DNA of 64,000 nt from Polaribacter sp. SA4-10 (GTDB lineage Bacteria; Bacteroidota; Bacteroidia; Flavobacteriales; Flavobacteriaceae): NCBI RefSeq assembly GCF_002163835.1, contig NZ_CP019331.1, positions 930,001-994,000 of the forward strand, given 5' to 3'. Below, one piece after another: positions 31,080 to 44,300 of this stretch. Within the stretch, counting starts at the first letter, position 1. Every line of letters starts with the position of its first letter. A model generated the notes under the pieces. It was not told the origin of the DNA, made no database searches, and saw nothing but the letters and a program-made list of their open reading frames with translations. A program made the position numbers and the translations under genes.

Positions 31080-31111
31080 TTGATTTTTTGACTAAAAAAA
31101 AACTAACTTTG
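31080..31111 (+). promoter_or_regulatory. Putative promoter at the head of the cassette region
   Basis: TTG (31080-31082) and TAACTTTG (31104-31111) are 21 nt apart, near the Bacteroidota consensus of 19. It is followed by GCGTTAACG (31151-31159) and by the MBOAT gene at 31224. It could drive the leading cassette. Confidence 0.45.
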
Positions 31112-31223
31112 TCCACTTCTGATATAAGAAATTAAAACTAAGTTATATCAGCGTTAACGTTGTGCCTATCCCCCCTAAAAACAACAAAACTAGTTATCAA
31201 ACTACAAAGAATAGACAGAATTT

Positions 31224-32675
31224 ATGCTTTTTAACTCAATTGACTTTGCTATATTCCTACCCATAGTATTTATACTTTATTGGTTTGCAACAAACAACAA
31301 CTTGAAACTGCAAAACTTTCTAATAGTTGCAGCTAGTTATTTATTTTATGGTTGGTGGGATTGGAGATTTTTATCGCTAATTTTATTCAGCACTTTGATT
31401 GATTATTCAATTGGAATTAGATTATCAAAAGAAGATAATATATCAAAAAGAAAGATATTGCTTTGGATAAGTATTTTGGTAAATCTTGGATTTTTAGGAT
31501 TTTTTAAATACTATAATTTCTTTCTCGATAACTTTGTGACAGCATTTTCATTTTTTGGATCTTCAATAAATCCACAAGGATTAAATATAATCTTACCTGT
31601 TGGTATTAGTTTTTATACTTTTCAAACGTTAAGCTATACAATCGATGTTTACAAGCGAAAACTTGAACCTACAAAAGACTTTATAGCATTTTCAGCATTT
31701 GTTAGTTTCTTTCCTCAACTAGTTGCAGGACCAATTGAGAGAGCGTCAAATCTTTTACCTCAGTTTTATAGAAAAAGAGAATTTGATTACTCTAAAGCTG
31801 TAGATGGAATGCGTCAGATTCTATGGGGACTATTTAAAAAAATTGTTATCGCTGATAACTGTGCTCAATATGCTAATGAGATATTCAATAATTCAGCTGA
31901 TTTCTCAGGAAGTACATTAGTACTTGGTGCTGTTTTCTTTACATTTCAAATATATGGAGACTTCTCAGGGTATTCGGATATTGCAATTGGTACATCAAGA
32001 CTTTTCGGATTTAATTTAAAACAAAACTTTGCATTCCCTTACTTTTCAAGAGACATTGCAGAATTTTGGAGACGTTGGCATATTTCATTGTCAACTTGGT
32101 TTCGGGACTATTTATATATTCCATTGGGCGGAAGTCGCGGTGGTACTTGGATAAAAGTTAGAAATACTTTTATCATTTTTATAGTCAGTGGATTTTGGCA
32201 TGGTGCGAATTGGACATTTATTGTTTGGGGAGCATTGAATGCCATTTACTTCTTACCACTTTTATTGACCAACAATAATCGTAATAATCTTGAAACAGTT
32301 GCTCAAGGAAAGTTTTTTCCTAATATAAAAGAACTTTCTTTTATGTTGCTGACGTTTGGTTTAACAGTTTTTGCTTGGATATTCTTCAGGGCAGAGAACA
32401 TCGGTCATGCATTCAACTATATTTCGGAGATTTTATCAAGCTCACTTTTTGAAATCCCAAAGTTTGCAGGAAGGAGAAGTGCATTTACAACAATATTAAT
32501 TATTGGAATTTTTGTTTTAATTGAATGGCAAGGTCGTGAAGGTCAATATGCCATTTCGGACATTGGGCAAAAATGGTATAGACCATTAAGATGGACATTT
32601 TATTCATTACTCATTTTTGCAATAGGAATGTTTATGCCCTCAGTCGAATCACCTTTTATCTATTTTCAATTTTAA
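31224..32675 (+). CDS. MBOAT-family O-acyltransferase (AlgI/DltB-like)
   Basis: A 483-residue polytopic membrane protein. The family's conserved blocks are present: SFYTFQTLSYTIDVYK, AEFWRRWHISLSTWFRDYLYIPLGGSRGG (about 279-307) and SGFWHGANWTFIVWG (about 320-334) with the catalytic His. It would move acetyl groups from the cytoplasm to an exported glycan or other acceptor. It is followed by an SGNH-like gene 9 nt later, the usual partner. The region 32591-32788 in another frame is a shadow. Confidence 0.92.
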   Translation: MLFNSIDFAIFLPIVFILYWFATNNNLKLQNFLIVAASYLFYGWWDWRFLSLILFSTLIDYSIGIRLSKEDNISKRKILLWISILVNLGFLGFFKYYNFFLDNFVTAFSFFGSSINPQGLNIILPVGISFYTFQTLSYTIDVYKRKLEPTKDFIAFSAFVSFFPQLVAGPIERASNLLPQFYRKREFDYSKAVDGMRQILWGLFKKIVIADNCAQYANEIFNNSADFSGSTLVLGAVFFTFQIYGDFSGYSDIAIGTSRLFGFNLKQNFAFPYFSRDIAEFWRRWHISLSTWFRDYLYIPLGGSRGGTWIKVRNTFIIFIVSGFWHGANWTFIVWGALNAIYFLPLLLTNNNRNNLETVAQGKFFPNIKELSFMLLTFGLTVFAWIFFRAENIGHAFNYISEILSSSLFEIPKFAGRRSAFTTILIIGIFVLIEWQGREGQYAISDIGQKWYRPLRWTFYSLLIFAIGMFMPSVESPFIYFQF

Positions 32676-32684
32676 GCATTAGCA

Positions 32685-33638
32685 ATGAAAAAATTCATTT
32701 CCAATACGATTTTATTTCTTCTTTTTACATCATTATTTTATTTGACATTCTTGTTTGTTTGGGGGAGTTACGCACCTTCAATATCTAAACAAAATATTAA
32801 TTATAAAATTGGCTCATATGGGCATATGTACTCAAGGCTTTCTGAGATTAAAAATCACGGAGATGTAGATATTCTATTTTTAGGGTCATCTCATGCATAT
32901 AGGGGTTTTGATACAAGAATATTCTTAGATAATGGATATAAATCATTTAATTTAGGTTCGAGTGCTCAAACACCTTCTCAAACAAAAGTTTTACTTAAAA
33001 GGTATTTGGAAAGTTTAAATCCAGAAATAGTGATTTATGAAGTTTATCCAGAAACGTTTACTATAGACGGTGTTGAATCATCTCTTGATATAATTGCTAA
33101 TGACAAAAATGATTCACATTCTTTGAATATGGCATTAAAAATCAACAATATAAAAACATATAATACGCTAATTTACGGTTTAACTCGTGATTTACTTGGA
33201 TTAAATAAATCGTTTTCTGAACCTATCATTAAAGGGAATGACAAATATATCTCTGGTGGTTATGTGGAAAAAGAAATAGGTTTTTATCAACCTACTGAAT
33301 TCGAAAAAAAAGAAATTTCATTGAGAGATTATCAACTTGAATCTTTTTCTGAAATAGTACAAATGGTTAAAAATAAAAATATTGAATTAATTCTAGTATA
33401 TGCCCCAATTCCAAGTGCTAATTATATCAGTTATAGTAATAATCATTATTTTGACAGCATAATGAGAAGGTATTCAGAATATTACAATTTCAATGAAATA
33501 TTAACCTTAAATGACTCATTATATTTTTACGATTCTAGTCACTTAAATCAAAATGGTGTTAACATATTTAATAAAAAACTAATTGAATTATTAAATGAAA
33601 ATAAAGCACGAACGCACAACAATGTATATAAAAAATAG
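32685..33638 (+). CDS. SGNH-hydrolase-like acetyltransferase partner of the MBOAT protein
   Basis: A 317-residue protein with an N-terminal membrane anchor (about 5-27), the GDS-like block ILFLGSSHAYRGFD (about 62-75, nucleophile Ser) and a C-terminal DSSHLNQNG (about 282-290) with the Asp-x-x-His pair. This matches AlgJ/AlgX/DltD-like partners that finish O-acetyl transfer in the periplasm. Its last codons and stop lie within the left arm of the CGTTAGC repeat that follows, as in integron cassettes. Confidence 0.85.
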   Translation: MKKFISNTILFLLFTSLFYLTFLFVWGSYAPSISKQNINYKIGSYGHMYSRLSEIKNHGDVDILFLGSSHAYRGFDTRIFLDNGYKSFNLGSSAQTPSQTKVLLKRYLESLNPEIVIYEVYPETFTIDGVESSLDIIANDKNDSHSLNMALKINNIKTYNTLIYGLTRDLLGLNKSFSEPIIKGNDKYISGGYVEKEIGFYQPTEFEKKEISLRDYQLESFSEIVQMVKNKNIELILVYAPIPSANYISYSNNHYFDSIMRRYSEYYNFNEILTLNDSLYFYDSSHLNQNGVNIFNKKLIELLNENKARTHNNVYKK

Positions 33639-33744
33639 GCGAAAGAGTAATAAATTCAAGGCTTTTGGCTCGCATCAAACTTTGTGCTTAACCGAAAGCT
33701 TTGTGCTTCGAAATCGCCTACTTTTCATATACTAACCGTTAGCC
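33612..33744 (+). repeat. attC-like repeat A (long form)
   Basis: Left arm CACAACAATGTATAT..AATAGGCGA pairs imperfectly with TCGCCTACTTTTCATATAC..AACCGTTAGC on the right, forming a long hairpin. The left arm contains the stop of the SGNH gene; the right end CGTTAGCC lies 14 nt before the next gene's ATG. Confidence 0.75.
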
Positions 33745-33758
33745 ATCATTTACATATC

Positions 33759-35306
33759 ATGAAATTGTTTAACACCAAACTCCAACATAAAACACTCGAA
33801 ATCGTAGGTTTATTTCTAATTATTGTAATTTTCTTTTTTGGTTTTAGTATTTCTTATAATGAAATGGATGTAATTCCATATGCAAGAGCCACTTTTAATG
33901 ATAATTGGATACCAAATGATTGGTACCTAAATCTTAACATCACATACCGTTATTTATTCAGCTATATTATTGGTTTCTTTGCAGAAACCTTTGGAACTAT
34001 CCCAACAATCATAGCTGGAAGACTCATCTCATATGTCTTAATTTCCTTATCACTTCTCCTTTTAATAAGGCTAGTTTATGGGAAATCTTATAACGCTATA
34101 ACTTATTTAGCACTTGTTCTTTTATTTACCTTTTTCCCAAATGGAAATGGCGCTGAAGAATGGATGGTAGGAGGTTTAGAAACCAAAGTATTTTCATACG
34201 CATTTTCAATATTGGCACTAGCCATGTTCCTTGAAAAAAGGATGAAATTGGGATTTCTGTTTGCAGGTTTGATGCTGTCCTTTCATCTATTGATCGGTAT
34301 TTATAGCATATTTTGCCTTATTCCAATCTTCTTTTTTTATCAACGGGATGCAAAAAAGTTTTATTTAGATGCTGTAAAAGCATTTCCAATTTTTATTATC
34401 ACTGGAAGCATAGGTATTTATGGTATTGTGCATCAATTGTTTTTCTCAGAAAGCTCTGCATCAAATATTGGATGGGATATATACGTAAACCTGAGAGTGC
34501 CACATCACACTTTGCCTAATTTTTTTCCATTTGAACTTTGGATCAAAATGATGGTTTTTACAGCAATAAACATCGGATTTACAATAAAATTGCGGAATCA
34601 AAAAATCAAGTTGATTTCCTATTATGCTCTTTTTTCAGTAATTATTAGTTTGATTGGAATAATTGTCTTTTGGATTTCGGACGCCAATCACAACTTGAAA
34701 TATTACTTCTTTAGATTTAGCGATACCACACTACCTTTAATAACACTATTAAATGTCAGCTATTTTCTCAATGAAAAAATAAAGAAATCTCCTCGAAAAG
34801 TTCAAAATATATTAAGCTATACAGCTTGTGTGATTATGCTTCTATTTGTAGCTGCAAAGGCAAAAGGTTTTACTGCAAACTTCACAAGTAACAATATAAA
34901 GTTTAAGACGCATACCAGTGACGATGTTGCAATGGAAAATTGGGTGAAAAACAACACCGATAATACCAAGACTTTTATTGTCCCACCTAATATGAGCTTC
35001 TTCTATATCAATTTTGAACGATCTGCATTTGTTACATGGAAGCACTCACCACAAAACGAAGCAGATATAGTTGAATGGTATTGTCGACTAAAGCTCCTCA
35101 ATCAAAATGAAGACTTTAAGTATCAATCAGAAATCTATGATAACTATTACAAATTGACCAAGAAGGATATCTTAATCATTGCCAAAAAATATCCAAATGC
35201 CAATTATTTTTTGACCTCTAGCGCAACAAACTTAAGTTTTCCAGTACTATTCAAATCCGACAAGTTTACGTTATATAAAATTAGAACGTTGGCTAACAAA
35301 ACCTAA
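33759..35306 (+). CDS. Large polytopic membrane protein, GT-C-like
   Basis: About 515 residues from the ATG at 33759, with ten or more hydrophobic segments and a soluble C-terminal part from about residue 390. An NEMDVIPYARATFND motif after the first helix recalls the first periplasmic loop of GT-C glycosyltransferase-fold proteins, and it resembles DUF6798-type proteins, but no catalytic function can be assigned. The longer GTG frame from 33684 would run through repeat A and is rejected. Its stop codon lies inside the next CGTTAGC repeat. Confidence 0.75.
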   Translation: MKLFNTKLQHKTLEIVGLFLIIVIFFFGFSISYNEMDVIPYARATFNDNWIPNDWYLNLNITYRYLFSYIIGFFAETFGTIPTIIAGRLISYVLISLSLLLLIRLVYGKSYNAITYLALVLLFTFFPNGNGAEEWMVGGLETKVFSYAFSILALAMFLEKRMKLGFLFAGLMLSFHLLIGIYSIFCLIPIFFFYQRDAKKFYLDAVKAFPIFIITGSIGIYGIVHQLFFSESSASNIGWDIYVNLRVPHHTLPNFFPFELWIKMMVFTAINIGFTIKLRNQKIKLISYYALFSVIISLIGIIVFWISDANHNLKYYFFRFSDTTLPLITLLNVSYFLNEKIKKSPRKVQNILSYTACVIMLLFVAAKAKGFTANFTSNNIKFKTHTSDDVAMENWVKNNTDNTKTFIVPPNMSFFYINFERSAFVTWKHSPQNEADIVEWYCRLKLLNQNEDFKYQSEIYDNYYKLTKKDILIIAKKYPNANYFLTSSATNLSFPVLFKSDKFTLYKIRTLANKT

Positions 35307-35341
35307 ACTGCATTAAAACGCAGTTTAGCCGAAGCGTTAGC
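35291..35341 (+). repeat. attC-like repeat B (short form)
   Basis: GGCTAAC (35291-35297) pairs with GTTAGC (35336-35341). Inside, CTAAACTGC (35303-35311) pairs perfectly with GCAGTTTAG (35320-35328) around an 8-nt loop. The two helices are separated by an unpaired internal loop (5 and 7 nt). This R''-L''-loop-L'-R' layout is that of an integron attC site. The stop of the upstream gene (35304-35306) is inside it. Confidence 0.8.
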
Positions 35342-35370
35342 AGTAATTTAAGAACTAAAAATAAATAAAA

Positions 35371-36069
35371 TTGAAAGCATACTTTTCAAATGTCATTCCA
35401 AAAATTCAGCAATTTTCAAAAAAATTTGATGATTTAACTTTATTAAAAAATCAAAATTGGGTTTTAATTGATGAATCTAATGACACTAAAAATGTTTTTA
35501 TTTTTCGTGATAAAAACCAAGTTTTAATCTCAAGAAACGGAAAAGTTAAAAGAGAAAATTGGGAATATATAGGAGAAAATAATTTACTAATTGATATAGA
35601 TGGTGAGAGTTATTTATTCAAACATGGTTTTTTAGACGAAAATATATTTGCCTTAAAAATGGATAGTAAAGACACTTATGTTTTTTTGATTAATGAATCT
35701 AAATATGGGTTTGAAATTAATAGCGTCGCAGACATAAATGAATTTTTAATTGAAAATTACTTAATAAATAAACAGCAAATCACTAATAATCAATTAAGTA
35801 ATAATTATGAAATTAAAAAAGTAAAAAGTAAAAAAGCTTTTTTTGCCCCTATACGGGAAACTTTTAAAGTTCGTTTCAATGATAAATTAAAAGGAGAAAT
35901 ATATGTGAGTAAAACTAGTAAAAAGTCATATTTTATTGACAGTATCAACTATACCTCAGAAATGAAACGATATTATATTAATTCTGATTACTGTATTTCC
36001 GCATTACATCAATTTTTGAAAACAGGTGAAATATCAAAAGTTGGATTAGTTGAGTCAATAATATCATAA
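35371..36069 (+). CDS. Unknown 232-residue cassette protein
   Basis: A soluble, lysine-rich protein of about 232 residues starting at TTG 35371 (MKAYFSNVIPKIQQFSKKFD). The N-terminal half has alternating hydrophobic strands (WVLIDE, NVFIFRDKNQVLISRNGKV, WEYIGENNLLIDIDGESYLFKHG) that suggest a beta-sandwich or barrel. I recognise no family or catalytic motif. It lies between two CGTTAGC repeats and so forms a single-gene cassette. Confidence 0.7.
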   Translation: MKAYFSNVIPKIQQFSKKFDDLTLLKNQNWVLIDESNDTKNVFIFRDKNQVLISRNGKVKRENWEYIGENNLLIDIDGESYLFKHGFLDENIFALKMDSKDTYVFLINESKYGFEINSVADINEFLIENYLINKQQITNNQLSNNYEIKKVKSKKAFFAPIRETFKVRFNDKLKGEIYVSKTSKKSYFIDSINYTSEMKRYYINSDYCISALHQFLKTGEISKVGLVESIIS

Positions 36070-36080
36070 TAAAAAATACT

Positions 36081-36208
36081 GCCAACAATGGCTATAAATA
36101 ATAGCTTGTTCTCGCCTACTTCTAAAAATTCTAGCGGATTTTCAGTTTGATCCGTACTACAAAGTTTAGTGCTAAACCAACGCAACATATCAAATACAAA
36201 CCGTTAGC
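36081..36208 (+). repeat. attC-like repeat C (long form)
   Basis: Begins GCCAACAATGGCTATAAATAATAG and ends CATATCAAATACAAACCGTTAGC. The ends are imperfect inverted repeats and an inner AAAATTCTAGCGGATTTT stem is visible. It follows the 232-residue protein gene. Confidence 0.75.
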
Positions 36209-36282
36209 GAAAAAATCAATTTTTAAATACAAAACGTTATCAAACAACAAAACCCAATGATTTCTCATTGGGATTTTTTTAG
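36203..36282 (+). repeat. Shared array-exit sequence, copy 1
   Basis: GTTAGCGAAAAA then TCAATTTTTAAATACAAAA and a hairpin CCCAATGA / TCATTGGG with T-run. The same sequence occurs at 38870-38950 and, more diverged, at 44222-44300. In each case it follows the last CGTTAGC repeat of a cassette block. The hairpin also serves as terminator. Confidence 0.8.
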
Positions 36283-36470
36283 CCTTTAATTTCTAAATGA
36301 ATTTCGAGTAATAATCACTTTTAGTTTTTGTTTAAAAACCTGCCCTGCATCATAGATCATTTGTTTATTGGTAGGAAGAAACCACACGCAATCTAATTAA
36401 ATCTATGTCAGCCAATTCTAAGGCTCTTTTATCACCTTTAAAGTTTGCATATGCGTGCTAAAATGTAATG
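36283..36470 (-). pseudogene. Decayed duplicate of the 3' end of the lipoprotein gene at 38954
   Basis: About 190 bp here align with 38951-39140 at roughly 90% identity by eye (for example GAATTTCGAGTAATAATC, CATAGATCATTTG and ACCACACGCAATCTAATTAAATC occur in both), in the same orientation. Only the last 60 or so codons are present. Similarity stops at GTGCTAAAATGTAATG, just where an IS3-like remnant begins. Confidence 0.85.
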
Positions 36471-36594
36471 ATAGAAAGCGTTAACGGAATATTAAAAAAA
36501 AGGCATTTAATCTAGACCAAACCTTTATGAACGTAGCACATGAAAAGAGAGCTGCAAAAAATGCAATTAATTGATACAATGAAGTAAGGTTCTA
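36471..36594 (+). pseudogene. IS3-family transposase remnant
   Basis: Fragments read IESVNGILK, then after a frameshift in an A-run AFNLDQTFMNVAHEKRAAKNAIN, then a stop followed by YNEVR. This matches the C-terminal part of the rve integrase domain in IS3-family OrfB proteins (ERVNGILK.EF..D...AxxAI..YN..R). Only about 40 codons remain and no terminal inverted repeats were found. Confidence 0.65.
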
Positions 36595-36741
36595 TTTTTT
36601 TTTAGACTAAAATACCCCAAATAGGGTATATAAATTAACAGCGTAAATCAATTTTAACCTGTAACCGTATTTCAGGACAAGCCATTAAGAAATAAATGAA
36701 ATTTGTTTTTTAATTTAACATTTCTTAAAAAAAGCTTTCAT
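36595..36741. other. Leader of the spondin_N cassette gene
   Basis: AT-rich non-coding sequence between the IS remnant and the next gene. CCCCAAATAGGGTA forms a small palindrome near 36612. No clear promoter consensus is visible. Confidence 0.4.
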
Positions 36742-37656
36742 ATGAATAAGCCTACTATTTTCATTATTATTTTATTATCTATTTTTTTGAGGGTCCAATC
36801 TTTTGGTCAATCTTCTGCTACTTATGATATCACTTTTACAAGTATTTGGAATGAAGCTGATCATACCAGTGTACCAAGTGGAAGTCATTGGTCTAAGTTA
36901 GTGGGAGCTACTCATAAAACAACCAATACCTTTTTGCAAATTGGTGATTTAGCCAGTATCGGCATTAAGAACATTGCTGAAACTGGAAATAATACTGTTT
37001 TCAACACTGAGGTTTCTACAGAAATAACAAATGGTGAAGCAGATCAATATGTAAATGGTTCTAATTTAGCAACCGCAACAGGTAATATCTTAATTTCAGA
37101 TCTAGTAGTTACAGAAGAATTTCCATTATTAACCTTAGTATCTATGATCGCACCAAGTCCAGATTGGATTATTGCAATTAATAGTTACAATTTATTGGAT
37201 ACTGGAGGTAATTTTAAAACTTCCGTTATTCTAGATGTATTTGCTTACGATGCTGGAACGGATAGTGGTACTGATTACAGTTCTAGCAATATTGTTACAG
37301 ATCCTTTTGAAGTAATTTCAATGATCGGTGGATTTCCAATAAATGGAAATAAAATGGGTACTTTAACAATTACATTGAAAACACTTTCAATTATAAATGA
37401 ACTTCCTTTTGACCAGGTTAAAATATTTCCGAATCCGGTATCGGATGGAAATATTCATATTAAGAATCTTGAAAATAGTTCTCTTAATAAGGTTGAAATA
37501 TTTAATGTAACTGGCTCGAAAACAAAAACATTTAATCAAATAGAAAATAAAAACACCTTAGATTTAGGCATCCACTTCTTACCAACAGGAATATATATAC
37601 TAAAGTTAACGGATGATAAGAATAACAACTTAGTAAGGAAATTTGTGGTTGAATAA
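36742..37656 (+). CDS. Secreted spondin_N-domain protein with T9SS sorting domain
   Basis: About 304 residues from the ATG at 36742 with signal peptide (MNKPTIFIIILLSIF..SFGQ). The middle is a spondin N-terminal domain: ATYDITFTSIWN, SGSHWSKLVGATH, GDLASIGIKNIAETGN, LVSMIAPSPDWIIAINSYNL, and DVFAYDAGTDSGTDY, which supplies the conserved acidic calcium-site residues. The last 80 residues are a T9SS C-terminal domain (IFPNPVSDG to LVRKFVVE). It is probably displayed on or shed from the cell surface. An upstream in-frame start at 36703 is less likely. Confidence 0.85.
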   Translation: MNKPTIFIIILLSIFLRVQSFGQSSATYDITFTSIWNEADHTSVPSGSHWSKLVGATHKTTNTFLQIGDLASIGIKNIAETGNNTVFNTEVSTEITNGEADQYVNGSNLATATGNILISDLVVTEEFPLLTLVSMIAPSPDWIIAINSYNLLDTGGNFKTSVILDVFAYDAGTDSGTDYSSSNIVTDPFEVISMIGGFPINGNKMGTLTITLKTLSIINELPFDQVKIFPNPVSDGNIHIKNLENSSLNKVEIFNVTGSKTKTFNQIENKNTLDLGIHFLPTGIYILKLTDDKNNNLVRKFVVE

Positions 37657-37663
37657 TAACTAT

Positions 37664-37784
37664 TTTCAACAATGGGTATAAAAAATTGCTTAATTCAGTA
37701 AAATAGCATGTTTCTAAAACTTAAATTTAAACATCAGAAAATAACGGTTTCAAAACCGCAAATTTCCTTAAAGTAATCGTTAGC
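37664..37784 (+). repeat. attC-like repeat D (long form)
   Basis: Left arm TTCAACAATGGGTATAAAAA.. and right end AGTAATCGTTAGC. An inner stem CGGTTT / AAACCG (37745-37758) is visible. It is more diverged in the middle than A, C and E. Confidence 0.65.
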
Positions 37785-37972
37785 CAATTAATGAAAATTG
37801 AACAATTGGAAATAAGATTTCACTTATAAAACTTTACAAATTTCACTTCCTCAAAATACTTGTTGTCTCAAACAATTGTTCTATAAAAAGTTTATGTATG
37901 CACGTAAAAATAGCATAAAGTCATTTAGTGTATAGTTTTGAGTGTTATTGAATTATATTTGAGAAAAAAACT

Positions 37973-38743
37973 ATGATACTTTTAAATCCAAATCTCATAC
38001 AAATTGATTCAAACTTAATATATGAAATTGAGGAGAAGTCTAAATCAATTTTTAGATCGATAACTTTTTGCAAAAAGACATCCTCTAAAAACCTATTAGA
38101 TTCTTTTATTAATAGCACCAATAACTTAACGGAGTTACTGAGTATAAAGAATGCTCAAATGGAAGCTGAAACCGAAGAAGATATAAAAATCTATCAACGA
38201 AATTTGAATAAGGTTATTCTTTATATAGTTAACGAAATAAAAAACGAAAGACCTTTTGAGTCCCAAATTCAGTTATTTCAGATATTCAGAATTATTTCGC
38301 CAGAAGCTCATCAGCTCCATCCCAATAGATATAGAGATCGCTTAGTGCAAGTTGGAGGTCATTTATGTCCTGAACCAGAAAGAGTTCCTGATTTGATAGG
38401 AAACTTATTCTATAATATAGAACAAATAAAAAACCCGTTAATTAAGGCAATATATTTACATCATGAAATGATAAGAATACATCCTTTTGTTGATGGTAAT
38501 GGACGAATAACAAGGATTGCAAAAAATTGGATACTAATGTATAATCTGTATCCTCCAATTTTTATTAAAGATGAAATAGAAAAGAAGGATTATATAAAAT
38601 CATTAAGTGGTAGCTTTAAAGCTATTGAAACAAATCAAGAAGTTTGGCATATAGAAACCAATAAGTTCTTTCAACAAGAATTAAATCGCGTTATGCTTAG
38701 CATAAATTATATTCTTGATAAAATAAAAACGGAAAGCAACTAA
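37973..38743 (+). CDS. Fic-family protein (predicted AMPylase)
   Basis: A 256-residue protein with the intact catalytic motif HPFVDGNGR (about 170-178), whose His and Asn/Arg residues act in transferring AMP from ATP to a protein hydroxyl. The Fic core is preceded by helices with NAQMEAE (about 59-65) in the place where class II Fic proteins have the inhibitory (S/T)xxxE(G/N) helix; the Ser and Gly are missing, so autoinhibition may be weak or use another element. No antitoxin-like gene is adjacent. It is a single-gene cassette with a 190-bp leader. Confidence 0.88.
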   Translation: MILLNPNLIQIDSNLIYEIEEKSKSIFRSITFCKKTSSKNLLDSFINSTNNLTELLSIKNAQMEAETEEDIKIYQRNLNKVILYIVNEIKNERPFESQIQLFQIFRIISPEAHQLHPNRYRDRLVQVGGHLCPEPERVPDLIGNLFYNIEQIKNPLIKAIYLHHEMIRIHPFVDGNGRITRIAKNWILMYNLYPPIFIKDEIEKKDYIKSLSGSFKAIETNQEVWHIETNKFFQQELNRVMLSINYILDKIKTESN

Positions 38744-38746
38744 CTA

Positions 38747-38875
38747 CAGCAACATGTATAATTAATTGCCGGGTTCACGCCTACTTGGAAGTTCCTTCGG
38801 AATTTTCTCTGGTTCGTTCCATTTCTGCTAACTTAGTGCTTGCCCACGCAACTACTCATAGCCGAAACCGTTAGC
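38747..38875 (+). repeat. attC-like repeat E (long form)
   Basis: Starts AGCAACATGTATAATTAATTGC and ends CATAGCCGAAACCGTTAGC. An inner stem GAAGTTCC / GGAATTTTC with loop TTC is clear. It is the last repeat before a native minus-strand gene. Confidence 0.8.
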
Positions 38876-38951
38876 GAAAAATCAATTTTTAAATACAAAA
38901 TGTTGTTAAACAAAAAATCCCAATGATTTCTCATTGGGATTTTTTTTTATC
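38870..38951 (+). repeat. Shared array-exit sequence, copy 2, with terminator
   Basis: GTTAGCGAAAAATCAATTTTTAAATACAAAA and a perfect 10-bp stem ATCCCAATGA / TCATTGGGAT (38917-38940) with T-run. The same hairpin terminates the minus-strand lipoprotein gene. Confidence 0.8.
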
Positions 38952-38953
38952 CT

Positions 38954-40141
38954 TTAATTTCGAAATGAATTTCGAGTAATAATCGCTTTTAGTTTTTGTT
39001 TTAAACCTTGGCCTGCGTCATAGATCATTTGTTCGTTGGTAGGAAAAGAAACCACACGCAATCTAATTAAATCAATATAAGCCGATTCTAAGGCTCTTTT
39101 ATCGCCTTTAAAGTTTGCATACGCGTGCTGAAACGCAAATGCACTTACTATTGGATATGTTTGTATCGTTTGCTTTGAACTTAAGTTCATATACTTTACT
39201 TGTCCTGTTACTTCTGCTGATTTAAATTGTGTAAACTGGTATAATTCACAACGGACACTTACAAGCTTATCTACCTTAATTTTATTTCCTTCCTCATCTA
39301 AAACTTGATCTCCATTTTTATCTAAAAGATATTCAAAGCCATCTTTCACCTCTTTTTCTTTGATAAATTCCTTTTCTCTAACTTGTTCTGGCGAAACCTC
39401 AATTTTTCTCAAGTTTAATTCCAAACCAAAATCATACGTTATTTTTACATCTTTCGCACCATGATAAACCGTCCATAATTCATTTAATCCATAGGTGTTA
39501 AAGTTTAATACATCCTCTTCTAATCTTTTAGGAAGTACTTGTTGCGTTTGGTTTTTCATAGAAACCAACACAAAGTCTACTCCTCTTTCATGCGCAATAG
39601 CTATTAAATTACGAACATCTTTAAAGTTAGGGTTTACCTTTTCTATATACTCTAAATCGTTATAAGCAGCTCTGTAATCAAATTTATTATTTGCATTGAA
39701 AAGTTTTTTTGCTTTTGAATATAAATATACTGACAGTTGGTTTTTATTTGCTATAATTTCATCGTCATAATTAGTAAACTGAAACACAGCATTTCTTTTT
39801 TCTGCTAAAATAAATAATGGCAACAAAGGTTTTAAGATTTCTTGCCTTCTTTTCAAATTCTCATATAAAACAAAAATAGTTTCTATTTTTTCAGGGTTGT
39901 TCTCTTTTTTTAAAAAATTGATACGTGCTAAATCTTTCGCAGTTGCTTTTGTAAAAGCCTCCTCTAAAAGTAAAATATAAGGCTGATTCTTTTTTTTAGT
40001 TTTATTTCTTTTTAGGTTGTCAACGGCAGTATTAATTGCACTGTCGTAATTTCCGTTACTAATATCCTCTTGTGTATTTTTGATACTACTACAAGAAGTT
40101 ATTAGAAGAATAAATGCTATAAAAAGTATACAATTTTTCAT
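38954..40141 (-). CDS. Conserved flavobacterial lipoprotein of unknown function
   Basis: A 395-residue protein with lipoprotein signal (Cys17, LLITSCSS). The N-terminal third is helical and TPR-like (GNYDSAINTAVDNLKRNK, KLFNANNKFDYRAAYNDLEYIEK). The rest is mixed alpha/beta with an Asp-rich loop LLDKNGDQVLDEEGNKIKVDK. I cannot name a family. It is on the minus strand, unlike the cassette genes on each side, and a decayed copy of its 3' end lies at 36283-36470. Confidence 0.8.
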   Translation of the reverse strand: MKNCILFIAFILLITSCSSIKNTQEDISNGNYDSAINTAVDNLKRNKTKKKNQPYILLLEEAFTKATAKDLARINFLKKENNPEKIETIFVLYENLKRRQEILKPLLPLFILAEKRNAVFQFTNYDDEIIANKNQLSVYLYSKAKKLFNANNKFDYRAAYNDLEYIEKVNPNFKDVRNLIAIAHERGVDFVLVSMKNQTQQVLPKRLEEDVLNFNTYGLNELWTVYHGAKDVKITYDFGLELNLRKIEVSPEQVREKEFIKEKEVKDGFEYLLDKNGDQVLDEEGNKIKVDKLVSVRCELYQFTQFKSAEVTGQVKYMNLSSKQTIQTYPIVSAFAFQHAYANFKGDKRALESAYIDLIRLRVVSFPTNEQMIYDAGQGLKQKLKAIITRNSFRN

Positions 40142-40237
40142 AATTAGTAGTGTTATTGAATTTTATAATAGATATTAAAATTTAAAGCTTCATTTTTCAC
40201 TTTTCACCGCCTAAAGATACTTTTTTATAAATAAAAA

Positions 40238-40267
40238 ATCCCGATGATTTCTCATCGGGATTTTTAT
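40238..40267 (-). terminator. Terminator after the ychF fragment
   Basis: Perfect 10-bp stem ATCCCGATGA / TCATCGGGAT with loop TTTC and T-run (A-run on the other side). It probably is the original ychF terminator, since the intact ychF now has a different downstream sequence. Confidence 0.75.
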
Positions 40268-40286
40268 GATTTATTTTCAAAGAGAA

Positions 40287-40530
40287 TTACACGTTAAAAC
40301 GAAAGTGCATTACATCACCATCTTTAACAATATATTCCTTACCCTCTACTCTCATTTTACCAGCTTCTTCTATACCAATATCTGCCAAAAACATTTGTCT
40401 TTCTTCATAATCGTCTAATTCTGTAACATCTACTAACACAATAACTTCTGCATTTTTATCTTTTACAACTTCTCTTATTCTTGCTACATAATCATTTCCA
40501 GAAACTGCAGCACTTTCATCCACATTAAAA
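40287..40530 (-). pseudogene. Partial, deleted duplicate of ychF
   Basis: Matches the last part of intact ychF (44341-45432). The final 79 bp are identical to 44345-44423; the rest is about 90% identical. Codons for about 75 residues are missing between EEAG and KMRVEG, exactly where ACCAGCTTCTT-like direct repeats occur in the intact gene, and five codons are lost at VGTEAD. Homology ends at about 40530, within the codons for VCNVDEDA. No start or GTPase domain is present, so the 78-residue frame is not a working gene. Confidence 0.9.
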
Positions 40531-40537
40531 ATACAAG

Positions 40538-40813
40538 CATGTTAGCACACTTTTGGTCAATCCAACAATGACAGGGCAATATTTATAGAATCAGATGTTT
40601 CTTTTTTATTCGGACGCGTTTTGGAAACAACTCGAATACCATTGTATAATGTGTAAAAAAGAGTTGCAAGGGACTTTAAATCTAGTGTTGTATTTCATTC
40701 ACCACTCTCTTGACCTATTTTAAGATAATTATAAATAAGAATAACAGAACGATTGTTCCAAATAAAAATTGAACTTTTTTTAAAAAAAATAAAAAAAGTG
40801 TGCTCACAACATG
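40538..40813. repeat. 276-bp segment with 17-bp terminal inverted repeats
   Basis: CATGTT-AGCACACTTTT (40538-40554) is the reverse complement of AAAAGTGTGCT(CAC)AACATG (40794-40813), apart from a 3-nt bulge. The interior has no open frame. The left arm contains GTTAGC and the right arm runs into half of a CGTTAGC-type repeat. Confidence 0.65.
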
Positions 40814-40838
40814 TATAATTCATTGCTAGTTATAGCCA
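40805..40838 (+). repeat. Orphan left half of an attC-like repeat (F)
   Basis: CACAACATGTATAATTCATTGC matches the left arm of repeat E (CAACATGTATAATTAATTGC). No CGTTAGC right end follows within 130 bp, so the repeat is truncated. Confidence 0.65.
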
Positions 40839-41604
40839 ACTAAAGAAAGTCCACACTCTAAATTACCGTTTACTGCAGCATTATTCTTGTGCGTCCTCGT
40901 AAATTTAAACTCCTTGAAGACAAGAACAACAAAAAAGCAAAAAAATACGATTTACCAAATCGTTTTTTTTGGTAATTTGTGTTATTCAATAAAAAGTTTT
41001 AGATTGCTAACGCTATTAAATTGAATGAAGATAAATTGCTATATCCAACTATTTTATTAGAAAAAAAACACCTAGAAAAGAACTTCAGTTTTTTTTAAAG
41101 GTACTACAGTAGATGCTTATGTTTTAGCCAGAAAGTTACCGGGTAACACATGCAAACAAAGTAACCTCCCCCCCACAAAATGTGCTGCTTTTAAAAAAGT
41201 AGCGCTATTCATTTTAACTACCTTTTTAAGAAAGAGTTTGTTGAAAATAAATTGTACCCCACAAAAAAAAGGAATGCTATAGCAAAATTTATAGCAACAG
41301 GTTTTAAAAAATAAAGCATCTTTTGATGCTTTATTTTTTAAAATTGATAGAAAAAACGGCAGTGCATAAACGGATAAAACTTCCGCTTATACTGTAAAAA
41401 ACAAAGGTAAGCAGACAGAAAATCTGCATATAAACAGGTTATGGGCAAGTTTACAAACAAAGACTTTCTGTGAAAGTCAAAGGACTGACATCCCAAAGTA
41501 AAAAAAGTGTTATTGAAATGAGAAAGTGGAATCTAGAAACCACTCAAAAAACTGGGTGTATTCTGAAAAACCTTATGAGTAGGAACAATTTAAATAAAAA
41601 AAAT
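40839..41604. other. Region of decayed coding remnants
   Basis: No intact gene. Short plus-strand frames look like former protein: RPRKFKLLEDKNNKKAKKYD (ends at 40976), EDKLLYPTILLEKKHLEKN (about 41024-41085), GTTVDAYVLARKLPG (about 41101-41145) and FNYLFKKEFVENKLYPTKK to a stop at 41313. None was matched to a family. A terminator-like hairpin CGATTT-ACC-AAATCG with eight T residues lies at 40948-40970 and another (TAAAGCATC / GATGCTTTA) at 41312-41336. The last 270 bp lead into the next gene. Confidence 0.45.
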
Positions 41605-42312
41605 ATGAGAAATTTAGTTAAACTTTTTTTAGTAGTTATTGCAATTACGATGACCACAGATGCGCTTTATGCTCAAAAATTTGGAATAAAGGCAGGTTTT
41701 AATTTATCAAACATGCTCGCAAAAGACAACGAAGAAACCTATAGTGATGATTTTAAAATGAAACCTGGTTTTCATATAGGTGCAACTGTAGAATTTCCAT
41801 TAACAGAAATGTTTTCGTTTGAAACAGGTTTGTTATTATCAACCAAAGGACTTAAGTCTAGTTATGAAGAAACATTTGCGGGTGAAACCTATAAGGAGGA
41901 ATCACAATTAAACCTTCTATATCCAGATATTCCTCTAACAGCTAAAGCTTCGTTTGATATGGGTAGTGGAAAAATCTATGGTCTTTTTGGGCCATATTTA
42001 GGTGTTGGACTAAGCGGTAAATCAAAGTATGAAAGTAGCTATGACGATGAGACTGAATCGTCAGAAGAAGATATTGAATGGGGATCTAATGAAGATGAGT
42101 CTGATTTAAAAAGAATGGATTTTGGTTTAACTATGGGAGCAGGGGTAGAGCTAAATCCAATTCAGATTGGCTTAACCTATACTTTAGGTTTAGCAAATAT
42201 TTCACCGCATACAGATGGCGGTACTAAGATTAAAAATCGAGTTTTAGGTATTTCTCTTGGTTATAGATTTGGAAAAAACAGAAAACCAGCACATAACAAG
42301 GTGTATAGTTAA
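41605..42312 (+). CDS. Outer-membrane beta-barrel protein (PorT-like OMP_b-brl domain)
   Basis: About 235 residues from ATG 41605, with a signal peptide (MRNLVKLFLVVIAITMTTDALYAQ). The opening KFGIKAGFNLSNM and alternating strands ending in NRVLGISLGYRFGK are typical of the small barrel proteins of Bacteroidota. An acidic loop (DDETESSEEDIEWGSNEDESD) is a distinctive insertion. The frame continues upstream to 41470 but those 45 residues precede the signal peptide and are rejected. The stop lies within repeat G. Confidence 0.8.
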   Translation: MRNLVKLFLVVIAITMTTDALYAQKFGIKAGFNLSNMLAKDNEETYSDDFKMKPGFHIGATVEFPLTEMFSFETGLLLSTKGLKSSYEETFAGETYKEESQLNLLYPDIPLTAKASFDMGSGKIYGLFGPYLGVGLSGKSKYESSYDDETESSEEDIEWGSNEDESDLKRMDFGLTMGAGVELNPIQIGLTYTLGLANISPHTDGGTKIKNRVLGISLGYRFGKNRKPAHNKVYS

Positions 42313-42419
42313 TGGCGGTTATATGCTAAATACCAAAATTTTTTCAATTAACAAACCAAGTGCTAAACCGAAAGTTAGTACTTCGAAATTCGACACTAAC
42401 CATGCACTAATACGTTAGC
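42290..42419 (+). repeat. attC-like repeat G (long form)
   Basis: Left arm CATAACAAGGTGTATAGTTAATGGCG pairs closely with the right arm CGACACTAACCATGCACTAATACGTTAGC (about 15 of 18 positions in the inner part). The upstream stop codon (42310-42312) is inside the left arm. The centre GTGCTAAACCGAAAG..TACTTCGAAAT resembles the centre of repeat A. Confidence 0.75.
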
Positions 42420-42464
42420 AAAGATTATCAATCAAAATAGAAATAAAATAAAAAAATTACAAGT

Positions 42465-43199
42465 ATGAAAAAAATTTACATCCTATTTATATTAATATCA
42501 TCAATATCCTATTCACAATGCAGTATAAATCATGTTCCAAGTTCCCCTCTAATTTTTACCATAGAGTTTGGTAATGTCTTTCTTTGGGGCCAGGGATTTA
42601 CTGCTGAATGCGATGGATATCTGGAATACGTAGAATTATTTTCTGCTGAAGCAGGAGTTGTTTCTGCTGGAACACTTAACATATATTCAGGTAATGGCGT
42701 AAGTGGTACACCTATACATACGCAACAATACGAAGAAATAACGATTTCTCAAATAGGTGATCCTATTAGAATTACTTTGACTGGAAATTTAGCCCTATCC
42801 AAAAATTCACAGTATACATTTGAATTTCCTGTTGATAATGTCTCTGTTTATGGGGGCATAAACGATGAGTATTCTGGTGGTTCAATTTGGCAAAACACTA
42901 ATACTGAATATCCAGATCACGATTTTTCTTTTACTGTCGCAATTTCAGAAACTTCTTTAAGTATTAATGAATATAATGAAGACGCAACAACATTTATATT
43001 CCCTAATCCTGCAGAAAGTTTTATTAAAATTTACAACTTAATTAAACCTCAATACTATAAAATTTATAATATGTTAGGAAAAGAAGTAAGTAGTGGAATT
43101 ATAACTGATAATGAAAATATTAATATTGAAAACTTAACTAGTGGGGTCTATTTCTTAAAATTAGAAAATGCTAATGCATTAAAATTTATAAAGAGTTAA
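42465..43199 (+). CDS. T9SS-secreted protein of unknown function (cassette)
   Basis: A 244-residue protein with signal peptide (MKKIYILFILISSISYSQC), a beta-rich domain of about 140 residues (LWGQGFTAECDGYLEYVELF, GTLNIYSGNGVSGTPIHTQQY) that looks like a jelly-roll or choice-of-anchor module, and a T9SS tail (IFPNPAESFIKIYN to ALKFIKS). No enzyme motif is seen. It is the gene of a single cassette between repeats G and H. Confidence 0.8.
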   Translation: MKKIYILFILISSISYSQCSINHVPSSPLIFTIEFGNVFLWGQGFTAECDGYLEYVELFSAEAGVVSAGTLNIYSGNGVSGTPIHTQQYEEITISQIGDPIRITLTGNLALSKNSQYTFEFPVDNVSVYGGINDEYSGGSIWQNTNTEYPDHDFSFTVAISETSLSINEYNEDATTFIFPNPAESFIKIYNLIKPQYYKIYNMLGKEVSSGIITDNENINIENLTSGVYFLKLENANALKFIKS

Positions 43200-43215
43200 A
43201 CTAACTAAAACATTT

Positions 43216-43280
43216 ACGAATACCGTATAAAATTAACTGCTAGTTTCTAGCCTACTTACAAAAGTCCTTGTGGACTTTTT
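43216..43280 (+). repeat. Truncated attC-like repeat H
   Basis: ATACCGTATAAAATTAACTGCTAGTTTCTAGCCTACTT resembles the left half of the long repeats, followed by a perfect 8-bp stem AAAAGTCC / GGACTTTT (43260-43279). The right half with CGTTAGC is missing. Confidence 0.55.
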
Positions 43281-43482
43281 ATCTGTAATTTATTTACTAA
43301 ATTTAGTATTTAAATCACAAAACTAATCTTATAAAAACTCATTAGTAAACATAAAAAAAGGCATTTGAGTTTCCCCAAAAACATGTAAGCGATTTGAAAG
43401 CGGAAGATTTTATTGTTGCTACAATGCAATTAAAATTAAATTAATATAATTTTATACTTAATATAAACTAAATTTACCCCTT

Positions 43483-44172
43483 ATGAAAAAAATTCTATTT
43501 GCACTAGTTATTCTTTTAGGGCTAACTCAAACAACACAGGCACAAGTTAGTTGCGACACGATGAACTTAATAGTTAATGTAGGTTCTGACACGAATATGG
43601 TCAATATATATCATCCTGGAGGTTACTTGACTTCACCTAGTGAATACAATGTTATTGCTTGGGAGATTAAAGATTCACAAGGTAACATTGTTGCTGAAAA
43701 CACTTTAGTAGATGAAAACTTTTATCAATTTTCTCACAACATTCCAATTACAGACATCATGAATGTTACTGCACTTTTATCAAATGACGCTGCTGAAATT
43801 TCATGTTTGATAGAAGACCAATTGTATTGGAAAATAACAGAAGTTATTCCAGATGTTTTTACAGGAAGATGGGAGTTTGTTCATGGTAATACAGGTGTAG
43901 ATGTAACAAATACCCTAGGTACCGATGATATAGAACCTACCATTGCAAGTGTATATCCAAATCCATCAAATGATTTAGTAAATATAAGCTTAGAGAAAGG
44001 TCAACTTTTAAAAATAGAACTATTTAGTATGACAGGTAGGCTACTATTTAAAAAGGATTTAAATTCTAAAACATATGCATTAAATATTAGTGAATATCAA
44101 TCTGGCGTATATCTAGTGAGGGTTTTTAACCAAAATAATGACGTAGTAAACACAACGATATTAAAAAAATAA
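43483..44172 (+). CDS. T9SS-secreted protein of unknown function (cassette)
   Basis: A 229-residue protein with signal peptide (MKKILFALVILLGLTQTTQAQ), a central beta-rich part of about 120 residues without known motifs, and a T9SS sorting domain (SVYPNPSNDLVNISLEKGQ to NTTILKK). It is the last cassette gene. Its stop codon lies 6 nt before the GCTAAC of repeat I. Confidence 0.8.
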   Translation: MKKILFALVILLGLTQTTQAQVSCDTMNLIVNVGSDTNMVNIYHPGGYLTSPSEYNVIAWEIKDSQGNIVAENTLVDENFYQFSHNIPITDIMNVTALLSNDAAEISCLIEDQLYWKITEVIPDVFTGRWEFVHGNTGVDVTNTLGTDDIEPTIASVYPNPSNDLVNISLEKGQLLKIELFSMTGRLLFKKDLNSKTYALNISEYQSGVYLVRVFNQNNDVVNTTILKK

Positions 44173-44176
44173 TGTT

Positions 44177-44227
44177 TGCTAACACCACCTAAACTGCATT
44201 GAAACGGAGCTTAGCTAAAACGTTAGC
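44177..44227 (+). repeat. attC-like repeat I (short form)
   Basis: Same layout as repeat B: TGCTAAC, then CTAAACTGC-ATTGAAAC-GGAGCTTAG inner hairpin (44189-44214), then AAACGTTAGC. The inner stem has one mismatch and one wobble, so it looks older than B. Confidence 0.75.
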
Positions 44228-44300
44228 GAAAAAATTAATTTTTAAATATAAAACGATATTAAACAAAAAATCTCAATGAATTTACATTGAGATTTTTTTA
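44222..44300 (+). repeat. Shared array-exit sequence, copy 3, with terminator
   Basis: GTTAGCGAAAAAATTAATTTTTAAATATAAAA matches copies 1 and 2. The hairpin AATCTCAATG / CATTGAGATT (44269-44294) with T-run has diverged from theirs. It is the terminator for the cassette side and for ychF on the minus strand. Confidence 0.75.

Follow-up and report, generated by a model that had tools for sequence, protein, structure and literature searches.

Cassette arrays without a local integrase in Polaribacter sp. SA4-10 very probably belong to a Bacteroidota integron system with an atypical recombinase

A 64-kb stretch of the Polaribacter sp. SA4-10 chromosome (NZ_CP019331.1, positions 930,001 to 994,000 of the forward strand), here called the window and numbered from its first base, contains two arrays of genes separated by repeats that resemble attC, the cassette-end site of integrons. 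As described in a sequence-only reading of this DNA, nine genes of the arrays lie on the plus strand, the lipoprotein and ychF genes lie on the minus strand, and the stop codons of three upstream genes are inside the left arms of the attC-like sites, namely A, B and G. The plus strand of the window holds seven CGTTAGC words, every one within 33737-44221 (33.7-44.2 kb), compared to approximately 0.2 per strand expected in 10.5 kb from the genome-wide count (68 forward and 62 reverse in 3.44 Mb). As a site detector this word was rejected, since it was not enriched genome-wide when compared to the reversed word (89 and 67), and a structural model was therefore needed. The covariance model, R1, was built from 43 long-type sites that accompany integrases. 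Of these, 41 came from other genomes, two from an integrase locus of the same genome (L011) and none from the window. R1 found nine sites in the window, A to I, all in one orientation (9/9) and with E-values from 2e-14 to 0.037; the next six matches (E ≥ 0.19) were on both strands and at chance level. No window site matched an Rfam model above a gathering score.

The first array begins with a landing element ('site0', approximately 31100-31159, plus strand, as are all features below), which is additional to the repeats previously named and is homologous to a dispersed attC/attI-like element found empty elsewhere. Cassette 1 (31160..33738, including attC A) starts right after this element, at G31159^TT, and holds two genes, an MBOAT acyltransferase (31224-32675; Pfam MBOAT) and a gene with no Pfam match (32685-33638). 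Its own start, GTTGTGCCT, and its end box, ACGCACAAC at 33612, match at 5/6 variable bases, and site A (33618..33742) scored 50.7 bits with R1 (E 1.6e-9). Cassette 2 (33739..35336, including attC B) carries a DUF6798 protein gene (33759-35306; Pfam) and cassette 3 (35337..36203, including attC C) carries a gene with no Pfam match (35371-36069). The own starts of cassettes 2 and 3, GTTAGCCAT and GTTAGCAGT, agree at 5/6 bases with the end boxes TTGGCTAAC at 35289 and ACTGCCAAC at 36078, respectively. Site B (35295..35340) is of a short type that folds as a hairpin (21.6 bits, E 0.0077), and site C (36084..36207) scored 65.9 bits. The following segment 4 (36204..37779, including attC D) is decayed and consists of a copy of the lipoprotein 3' end and then a gene with spondin-N and type IX secretion system (T9SS) tail domains (36742-37656; Pfam). 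An end box matching the start of this segment was looked for and none was found (best 3/6), and site D (37668..37783) is weak (25.5 bits, E 0.001). The partial duplicate of the lipoprotein 3' end lies at approximately 36207-36470 (repeats D1, D5 and D6). Cassette 5 (37780..38870, including attC E) carries a Fic/DOC gene (37973-38743; Pfam) and has at the expected place an end box that does not match its start; site E (38748..38874) scored 71.8 bits (E 2.3e-14). The right flank, GTTAGCGAAAA... (38870..38953), is as at empty site0 elements, and it ends window arrays three times, at 38870, 36203 and 44222.

Further along the window, a partial duplicate of the ychF 3' end (40287-40532) lies inside or beside the arrays, and site F is found at 40806..40912 (18.6 bits, E 0.037). 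In the second array an outer-membrane beta-barrel gene (41605..42312; Pfam) is followed by site G (42295..42418; 51.4 bits), and just 5' of this gene a DUF805 RNA motif (RF03081) scored above gathering at 41521-41589. Cassette 7 (42415..44222) holds two genes (T9SS-tail, 42465-43199 and 43483-44172; Pfam) and a decayed internal attC, site H (43219..43345). Its own start, GTTAGCAAA, agrees at 6/6 bases with the end box TTTGCTAAC at 44175, compared to 3/6 at site H itself. The cassette ends in site I (44181..44226), which is of the short type (23.6 bits). Sites F and H had both been taken for halves; F is indeed partial, but H has a complete stem, matching all 127 model positions (70.1 bits), and has lost its right box.

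The cassettes end in imperfect hairpin sites with pairing outer boxes (R''/R'), as in integrons. Among 76 cassettes, 57 scored at least 5 of 6 in the comparison of end box with own start, and these formed the set used for alignment and folding (two of the 57 are mis-assigned long ones); the 43 sites of R1 are the long-type members of this set from outside the window. In the inner stem, 13 of the 16 pairs have changed on both sides, and the covariation score was 0.561, compared to 0.163 ± 0.016 for shuffles and at most 0.132 when the partners were slid; because the stem was read from the same alignment, the score favors this stem over its slid versions. The top strand of the stem has regular A.C mismatches, which are G.T pairs on the bottom strand, and an asymmetric spacer is also present. 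In the modeled excised form, the bottom strand was more stable than the top strand in 56/57 sites, with mean fold energies of -24.7 and -20.9 kcal/mol, respectively, and the excised form folded more stably than the in-array form in 55/57 sites. The strand chosen in vivo is probably the bottom one.

In a cassette cut out as a circle, the end box would have to pair with the start of that cassette. The end box and own start of the 76 cassettes agreed at a mean of 5.08 of 6 variable bases, compared to 3.10 ± 0.10 for shuffled starts from other cassettes (highest 3.45 in 1000 shuffles) and 2.97 for the start of the next cassette. For 226 cassettes in 19 stretches of 10 genomes, the match was exact over nine bases and a stem and right box were present, compared to 17 with a control word. 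Moreover, 16 cassette families (42 copies) recur behind unrelated left neighbors. The identity between such copies is 0.31-0.35 far to the left, approximately 0.66 just left of the border, where the conserved site arm lies, and 0.99-1.0 starting at C|GTT. In the genome of strain SA4-10, two cassettes of an integrase-linked array (1188-1190 kb) are also present in clusters at 85 kb and 561 kb. These findings indicate, at the level of sequence, a crossover at G^TT and a mobility that is precise to the cassette.

The 9-base own-start box was considered as a feature special to the flavobacterial system and was rejected, since it also occurs divergently upstream of 3/10 true IntI genes in a scan with more than 2.5 kb of sequence at two loci only. 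On the same strand as true IntI genes, own-start 9-mers were found downstream in 1/9 and upstream in 2/9 loci. The own-start match beside true IntI indicates that the box logic is shared with known integrons. An IS110-family transposase (insertion sequence, IS) lies at L012:616-1608 (484.6-485.6 kb of the SA4-10 genome), with near-identical stretches in L128 and L132; the stretch is 99.9% identical at three places in the arrays of this genome and its end abuts a CGTTGTG box. IS elements targeting attC sites are known.

R1 gave 62 matches at E ≤ 0.001 in the SA4-10 genome. Of 58 genomes in the genus, 57 had at least one site, with only one match in four of these, as did 11/39 other genomes; these counts are lower bounds, with 150 of 6823 candidates scored in the SA4-10 genome and at most 36 per genome elsewhere. 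In stretches from three relatives, 287 sites were found in 400 kb, 287/287 of them on one strand, and two of these genomes had 137 sites in 200 kb and 104 sites in 120 kb, respectively (E ≤ 0.0005), all one way. In comparison, 400 kb sampled across the SA4-10 genome held one R1 site. On the SA4-10 chromosome, attC sites keep one orientation over long blocks: it is the same at 0.06-0.91 Mb and 2.7-3.35 Mb and reversed at 0.96-1.89 Mb, with a few exceptions. With regard to replication polarity, neither the dnaA gene at 3.41 Mb nor the GC skews of 20 sampled stretches and parts of the window settled the origin and terminus.

The arrays had been described as lacking an integrase. This is true locally, as tblastn at E 1e-3 found no integrase of the family described below in the window, but the same chromosome has two copies of a tyrosine recombinase gene, at 1186.7 kb (plus strand) and 491.8 kb (minus strand), approximately 210 kb and 470 kb away. 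Downstream of each copy are an attI-like site and cassettes. The two copies and the DNA upstream of them are 94-100% identical per 100-base block over 1.7 kb, up to ...CAATTG^TT; the next block beyond the 1.7 kb is 87% identical and then no similarity is found, and past CAATTG^TT the two loci are unrelated. At each copy the first cassette has an exact end box and then an attC-like left arm. The end of the identity at CAATTG^TT, together with the exact end boxes, locates the attI site in these sequences. A 118-amino-acid gene is divergent from both integrase copies (L011:3958-4314 and L012:8767-9123), the L012 copy having no Pfam match.

The profile TIGR02249 was rejected as an integron marker on its own, because it matched 94/97 genomes and all 14 controls, none above the cut-off. 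Linkage of cassettes to the integrase was used as the test instead, counted in loci with at least 1.5 kb downstream (31/50 for the integrase family, 19/25 for Xer-like proteins and 9/10 for IntI). Cassettes were found downstream of 25/31 family integrases (103 cassettes), compared to 6/31 upstream (7 cassettes) and 7/31 with a control word (9 cassettes). For Xer-like proteins, the numbers were 4/19 both downstream and upstream, one locus (L078) having five cassettes. An attI-like start, where the first cassette begins, lay 33-158 bp past the integrase stop codon in 13/25 loci scanned, compared to 1/25 for the control word, which places attI beside the integrase gene. In known integrons, cassettes divergent from the integrase are the common case. 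Hosts with downstream cassettes include Lutibacter, Algibacter, Winogradskyella, Seonamhaeicola and Flavobacterium, as well as Algoriphagus, Rufibacter, Arundinibacter and a metagenome-assembled genome of Chitinophaga.

The integrase is 350-410 amino acids long. Profile and fold searches placed its catalytic part nearest to XerA and IntI. The TIGR02249 match consists of two stretches, skipping approximately positions 183-233, and 3/5 proteins passed the XerA model NF040815, which is described as 'site-specific tyrosine recombinase/integron integrase'. The first approximately 80 residues form a separate domain in a structure model (predicted local distance difference test score, 86), with weak but agreeing similarity to the HARP and XPB DNA-recognition domains. 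This domain may help the integrase to recognize the folded attC. A bovine SMARCAL1 homologue was reported to be most active on stem-loop DNA (PMC4673416), and HARP domains were reported to dictate annealing, the second one being required (PMC3409536). Judged on its sequence, the integrase is not a standard IntI, and it appears to work as in an integron while failing one defining IntI test.

At the locus of the second array, the lipoprotein and ychF genes are adjacent in five relatives (L141, L143, L146, L147 and L148), with approximately 70-170 bp between the aligned ends, and in three others (L142, L144 and L145) they are separated by other sequence of 1.4-5.0 kb. No R1 site was found in the loci of these eight relatives (150 kb). 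Since five relatives are without the second array and no R1 site was present, the comparison indicates a gain of the second array within this lineage. The left-end element is approximately 60 bp long and is dispersed in the genus (L161 to L166, L106 at approximately 13984 and the window at approximately 31100-31159). Six related elements, five from relatives and one from the SA4-10 genome, were identical at 50-57 of 76 positions in gapped pairwise alignments. In L163, L164 and L166 the element is empty and followed by GTTAGCGAAAA, L164 having perfectly paired 9-base boxes, and in L165 it is followed by another sequence. It seems filled in L162, by a downstream R1 site, and in L106 and L161, by the start sequence alone; an R1 site downstream of the element was found only in L162 and the window. 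The landing element itself is missed by R1. Empty landing elements elsewhere correspond in one half to the left-end element of the window and in the other half to its right flank, and the window arrays were probably inserted at such a dispersed landing site and later rearranged by homologous recombination.

Taken together, the window very probably holds integrase-less cassette clusters of a Bacteroidota integron system whose atypical recombinase is encoded elsewhere on the chromosome. The mobile cassette system of integron type proposed in the sequence-only reading is thus borne out by boxes that match their own start, by borders at G^TT and by five relatives without the second array, and the relatives' arrays had neither a fixed order without cassette-precise gains nor random orientation. 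In the proposed mechanism, a tyrosine recombinase of approximately 350-410 amino acids would act on the folded bottom strand of attC (approximately 45 to 135 nt), its partner being a double-stranded attI just 3' of the integrase gene, another attC or a dispersed landing element, and the crossover would fall between G and TT. The excised circle would re-form a fully paired attC, as the end box (9 nt, ending in AAC) complements the cassette's own start (GTT and six bases), and recognition of the hairpin would be helped by the N-terminal HARP/XPB-like domain. The window arrays would have been built by insertion at landing elements and would since have partly decayed. The system may be active at present.

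Several observations weigh against this interpretation. The IntI additional domain was found by alignment in 0/29 family members, compared to 10/10 true IntI. TIGR02249 scored 177-223 bits, below its cut-off of 265, in 5/5 proteins scanned. Right boxes are mostly GTTAGC., GTTGGC., GTTGTG. and GTTGTA., that is GTTRK.., which differs from GTTRRRY, the consensus right box of classical integron attC sites; the suggestion that such boxes point to a different integrase agrees with the non-standard tyrosine recombinase family described here. By a 9-base rule, 6/31 family loci have no downstream cassette (L019, L028, L034, L044, L067 and L069). In the window, matching own-start boxes are kept by cassettes 1, 2, 3 and 7 only, and the mismatches of segments 4 and 5 indicate that the array is partly decayed. 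The duplicated ends of the lipoprotein and ychF genes indicate that homologous recombination also shaped the locus. Finally, the comparison behind the lineage gain covers the second array only, as no relative locus examined held the left neighbor gene of the first array.

With respect to the origin of the system, integron-style capture may have evolved a second time in Bacteroidota, which we consider to have close to an even chance: a XerA-like recombinase without the additional domain would have gained a HARP/XPB-like DNA-structure-binding domain and come to recombine folded single-stranded sites. A credible but not favored alternative is that a true IntI diverged here and lost its additional domain, in which case the system would share a single origin with known integrons and be a divergent branch of them. 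The position of the catalytic part near both XerA and IntI agrees with this. So do the features common to both systems, namely where the crossover falls, attI, the own-start boxes and the bias to the bottom strand, and the 9-mers upstream of IntI genes. Approximately unbiased (AU) tests did not reject a clade of the family and IntI (p 0.214), or of these two with five short Bacteroidota Xer-like proteins (p 0.439). In contrast, a quick tree, supported by the Shimodaira-Hasegawa-like approximate likelihood ratio test (SH-aLRT) only, kept the 10 IntI apart as one clade (100) and grouped the Bacteroidota family with the short Bacteroidota Xer-like proteins (83), and the lack of the additional domain in all 29 family members also speaks against this alternative. 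A second origin, if true, would have given superintegrons of more than 100 cassettes with dispersed landing sites in Flavobacteriaceae and beyond. The presence of sites in nearly all genomes of the genus, and of more than 100 in the stretches of two genomes, opens up a large reservoir of mobile genes in common marine bacteria. The system also provides a natural integrase without the additional domain, which Messier and Roy in 2001 reportedly called necessary for activity in the title of their paper, and makes the question of how recombinases came to act on folded single strands directly testable.

It is unlikely that the window array arose mainly from homologous recombination and IS transposition between arrays instead of local integrase action. 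The duplicated gene ends, the three copies of the same right flank and the IS110-family copies in other arrays of the genome would be expected from such events, but the left-end element and the right flank correspond to the halves of empty landing elements, and four cassettes retain their own-start boxes. That the repeats are terminators or intergenic hairpins of the repetitive extragenic palindromic (REP), bacterial interspersed mosaic element (BIME) or miniature inverted-repeat transposable element (MITE) kind, clustered by chance, is highly improbable: although the sites form hairpins at the 3' ends of genes and have terminator-like repeats beside them, the match of end box to own start already contradicts it, as do the single orientation, the linkage to one integrase family, the precise reuse of cassettes and the scarcity of sites in the sampled genome.

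Integrons have been reported before from this phylum. Bacteroidota are among the phyla with integrons (PMC8618304, PMC2426708), and a complete integron in Bacteroidetes has been named, in Salinibacter ruber (PMC9024848). In one genomic survey an integrase was accepted only if it had the IntI additional domain or patch (PMC2426708), and IntegronFinder 2.0 was reported to find no integrons in a Tenacibaculum genome (PMC10013915). Among the matches listed in the integron literature, excluding subscription papers and preprints, there was no account of chromosomal integrons of Flavobacteriaceae.

The closest known counterparts are the sedentary chromosomal integrons, or superintegrons, of Vibrio (PMC11023631, PMC11551772), which have in common with the present system an integrase, attI, large one-way arrays, folded cassette-end sites, own-start boxes, a G^TT crossover and a more stable bottom strand. 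In contrast to these, the flavobacterial integrase carries an extra domain at its N terminus but not the IntI additional domain, its cassettes run in the direction of the integrase, and the right box is GTTRK.. instead of GTTRRRY. The window array is like a CALIN, a cluster of attC sites lacking integron-integrases (PMC9024848), with at least two attC-like sites and no family integrase nearby. The attG secondary integration sites (Loot 2024, as cited in PMC12444791) likewise involve cassette clusters away from the integrase, but the landing element described here is conserved, resembles attC/attI and has paired boxes. A cassette cluster has been reported in Polaribacter phage P12002L (NC_028924, L167; PMC9892861), in which R1 gave nine sites at E ≤ 0.002. 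Several of these adjoin methyltransferase genes of the phage, which seems to carry cassettes of the present system. In the published assay, P12002L_attC2 was reported to recombine with attI1 via IntI1 through its bottom strand, whereas no recombinants were obtained from the top strand (PMC9892861). The assay used a foreign integrase, and no junction was verified for attC1. With nine R1 sites in this phage, activity of such a site with a foreign integrase may already be on record. Among the recombinases in the matches listed (XerA, XerD and IntI), none is described with an N-terminal domain of this type, and the matches begin after it. The flavobacterial integrase thus combines a catalytic part near XerA (PDB 5hxy, 4a8e) and IntI with an N-terminal domain that resembles the recognition domains of SMARCAL1 HARP and archaeal XPB (4o66, 5tnu, 6p4f).

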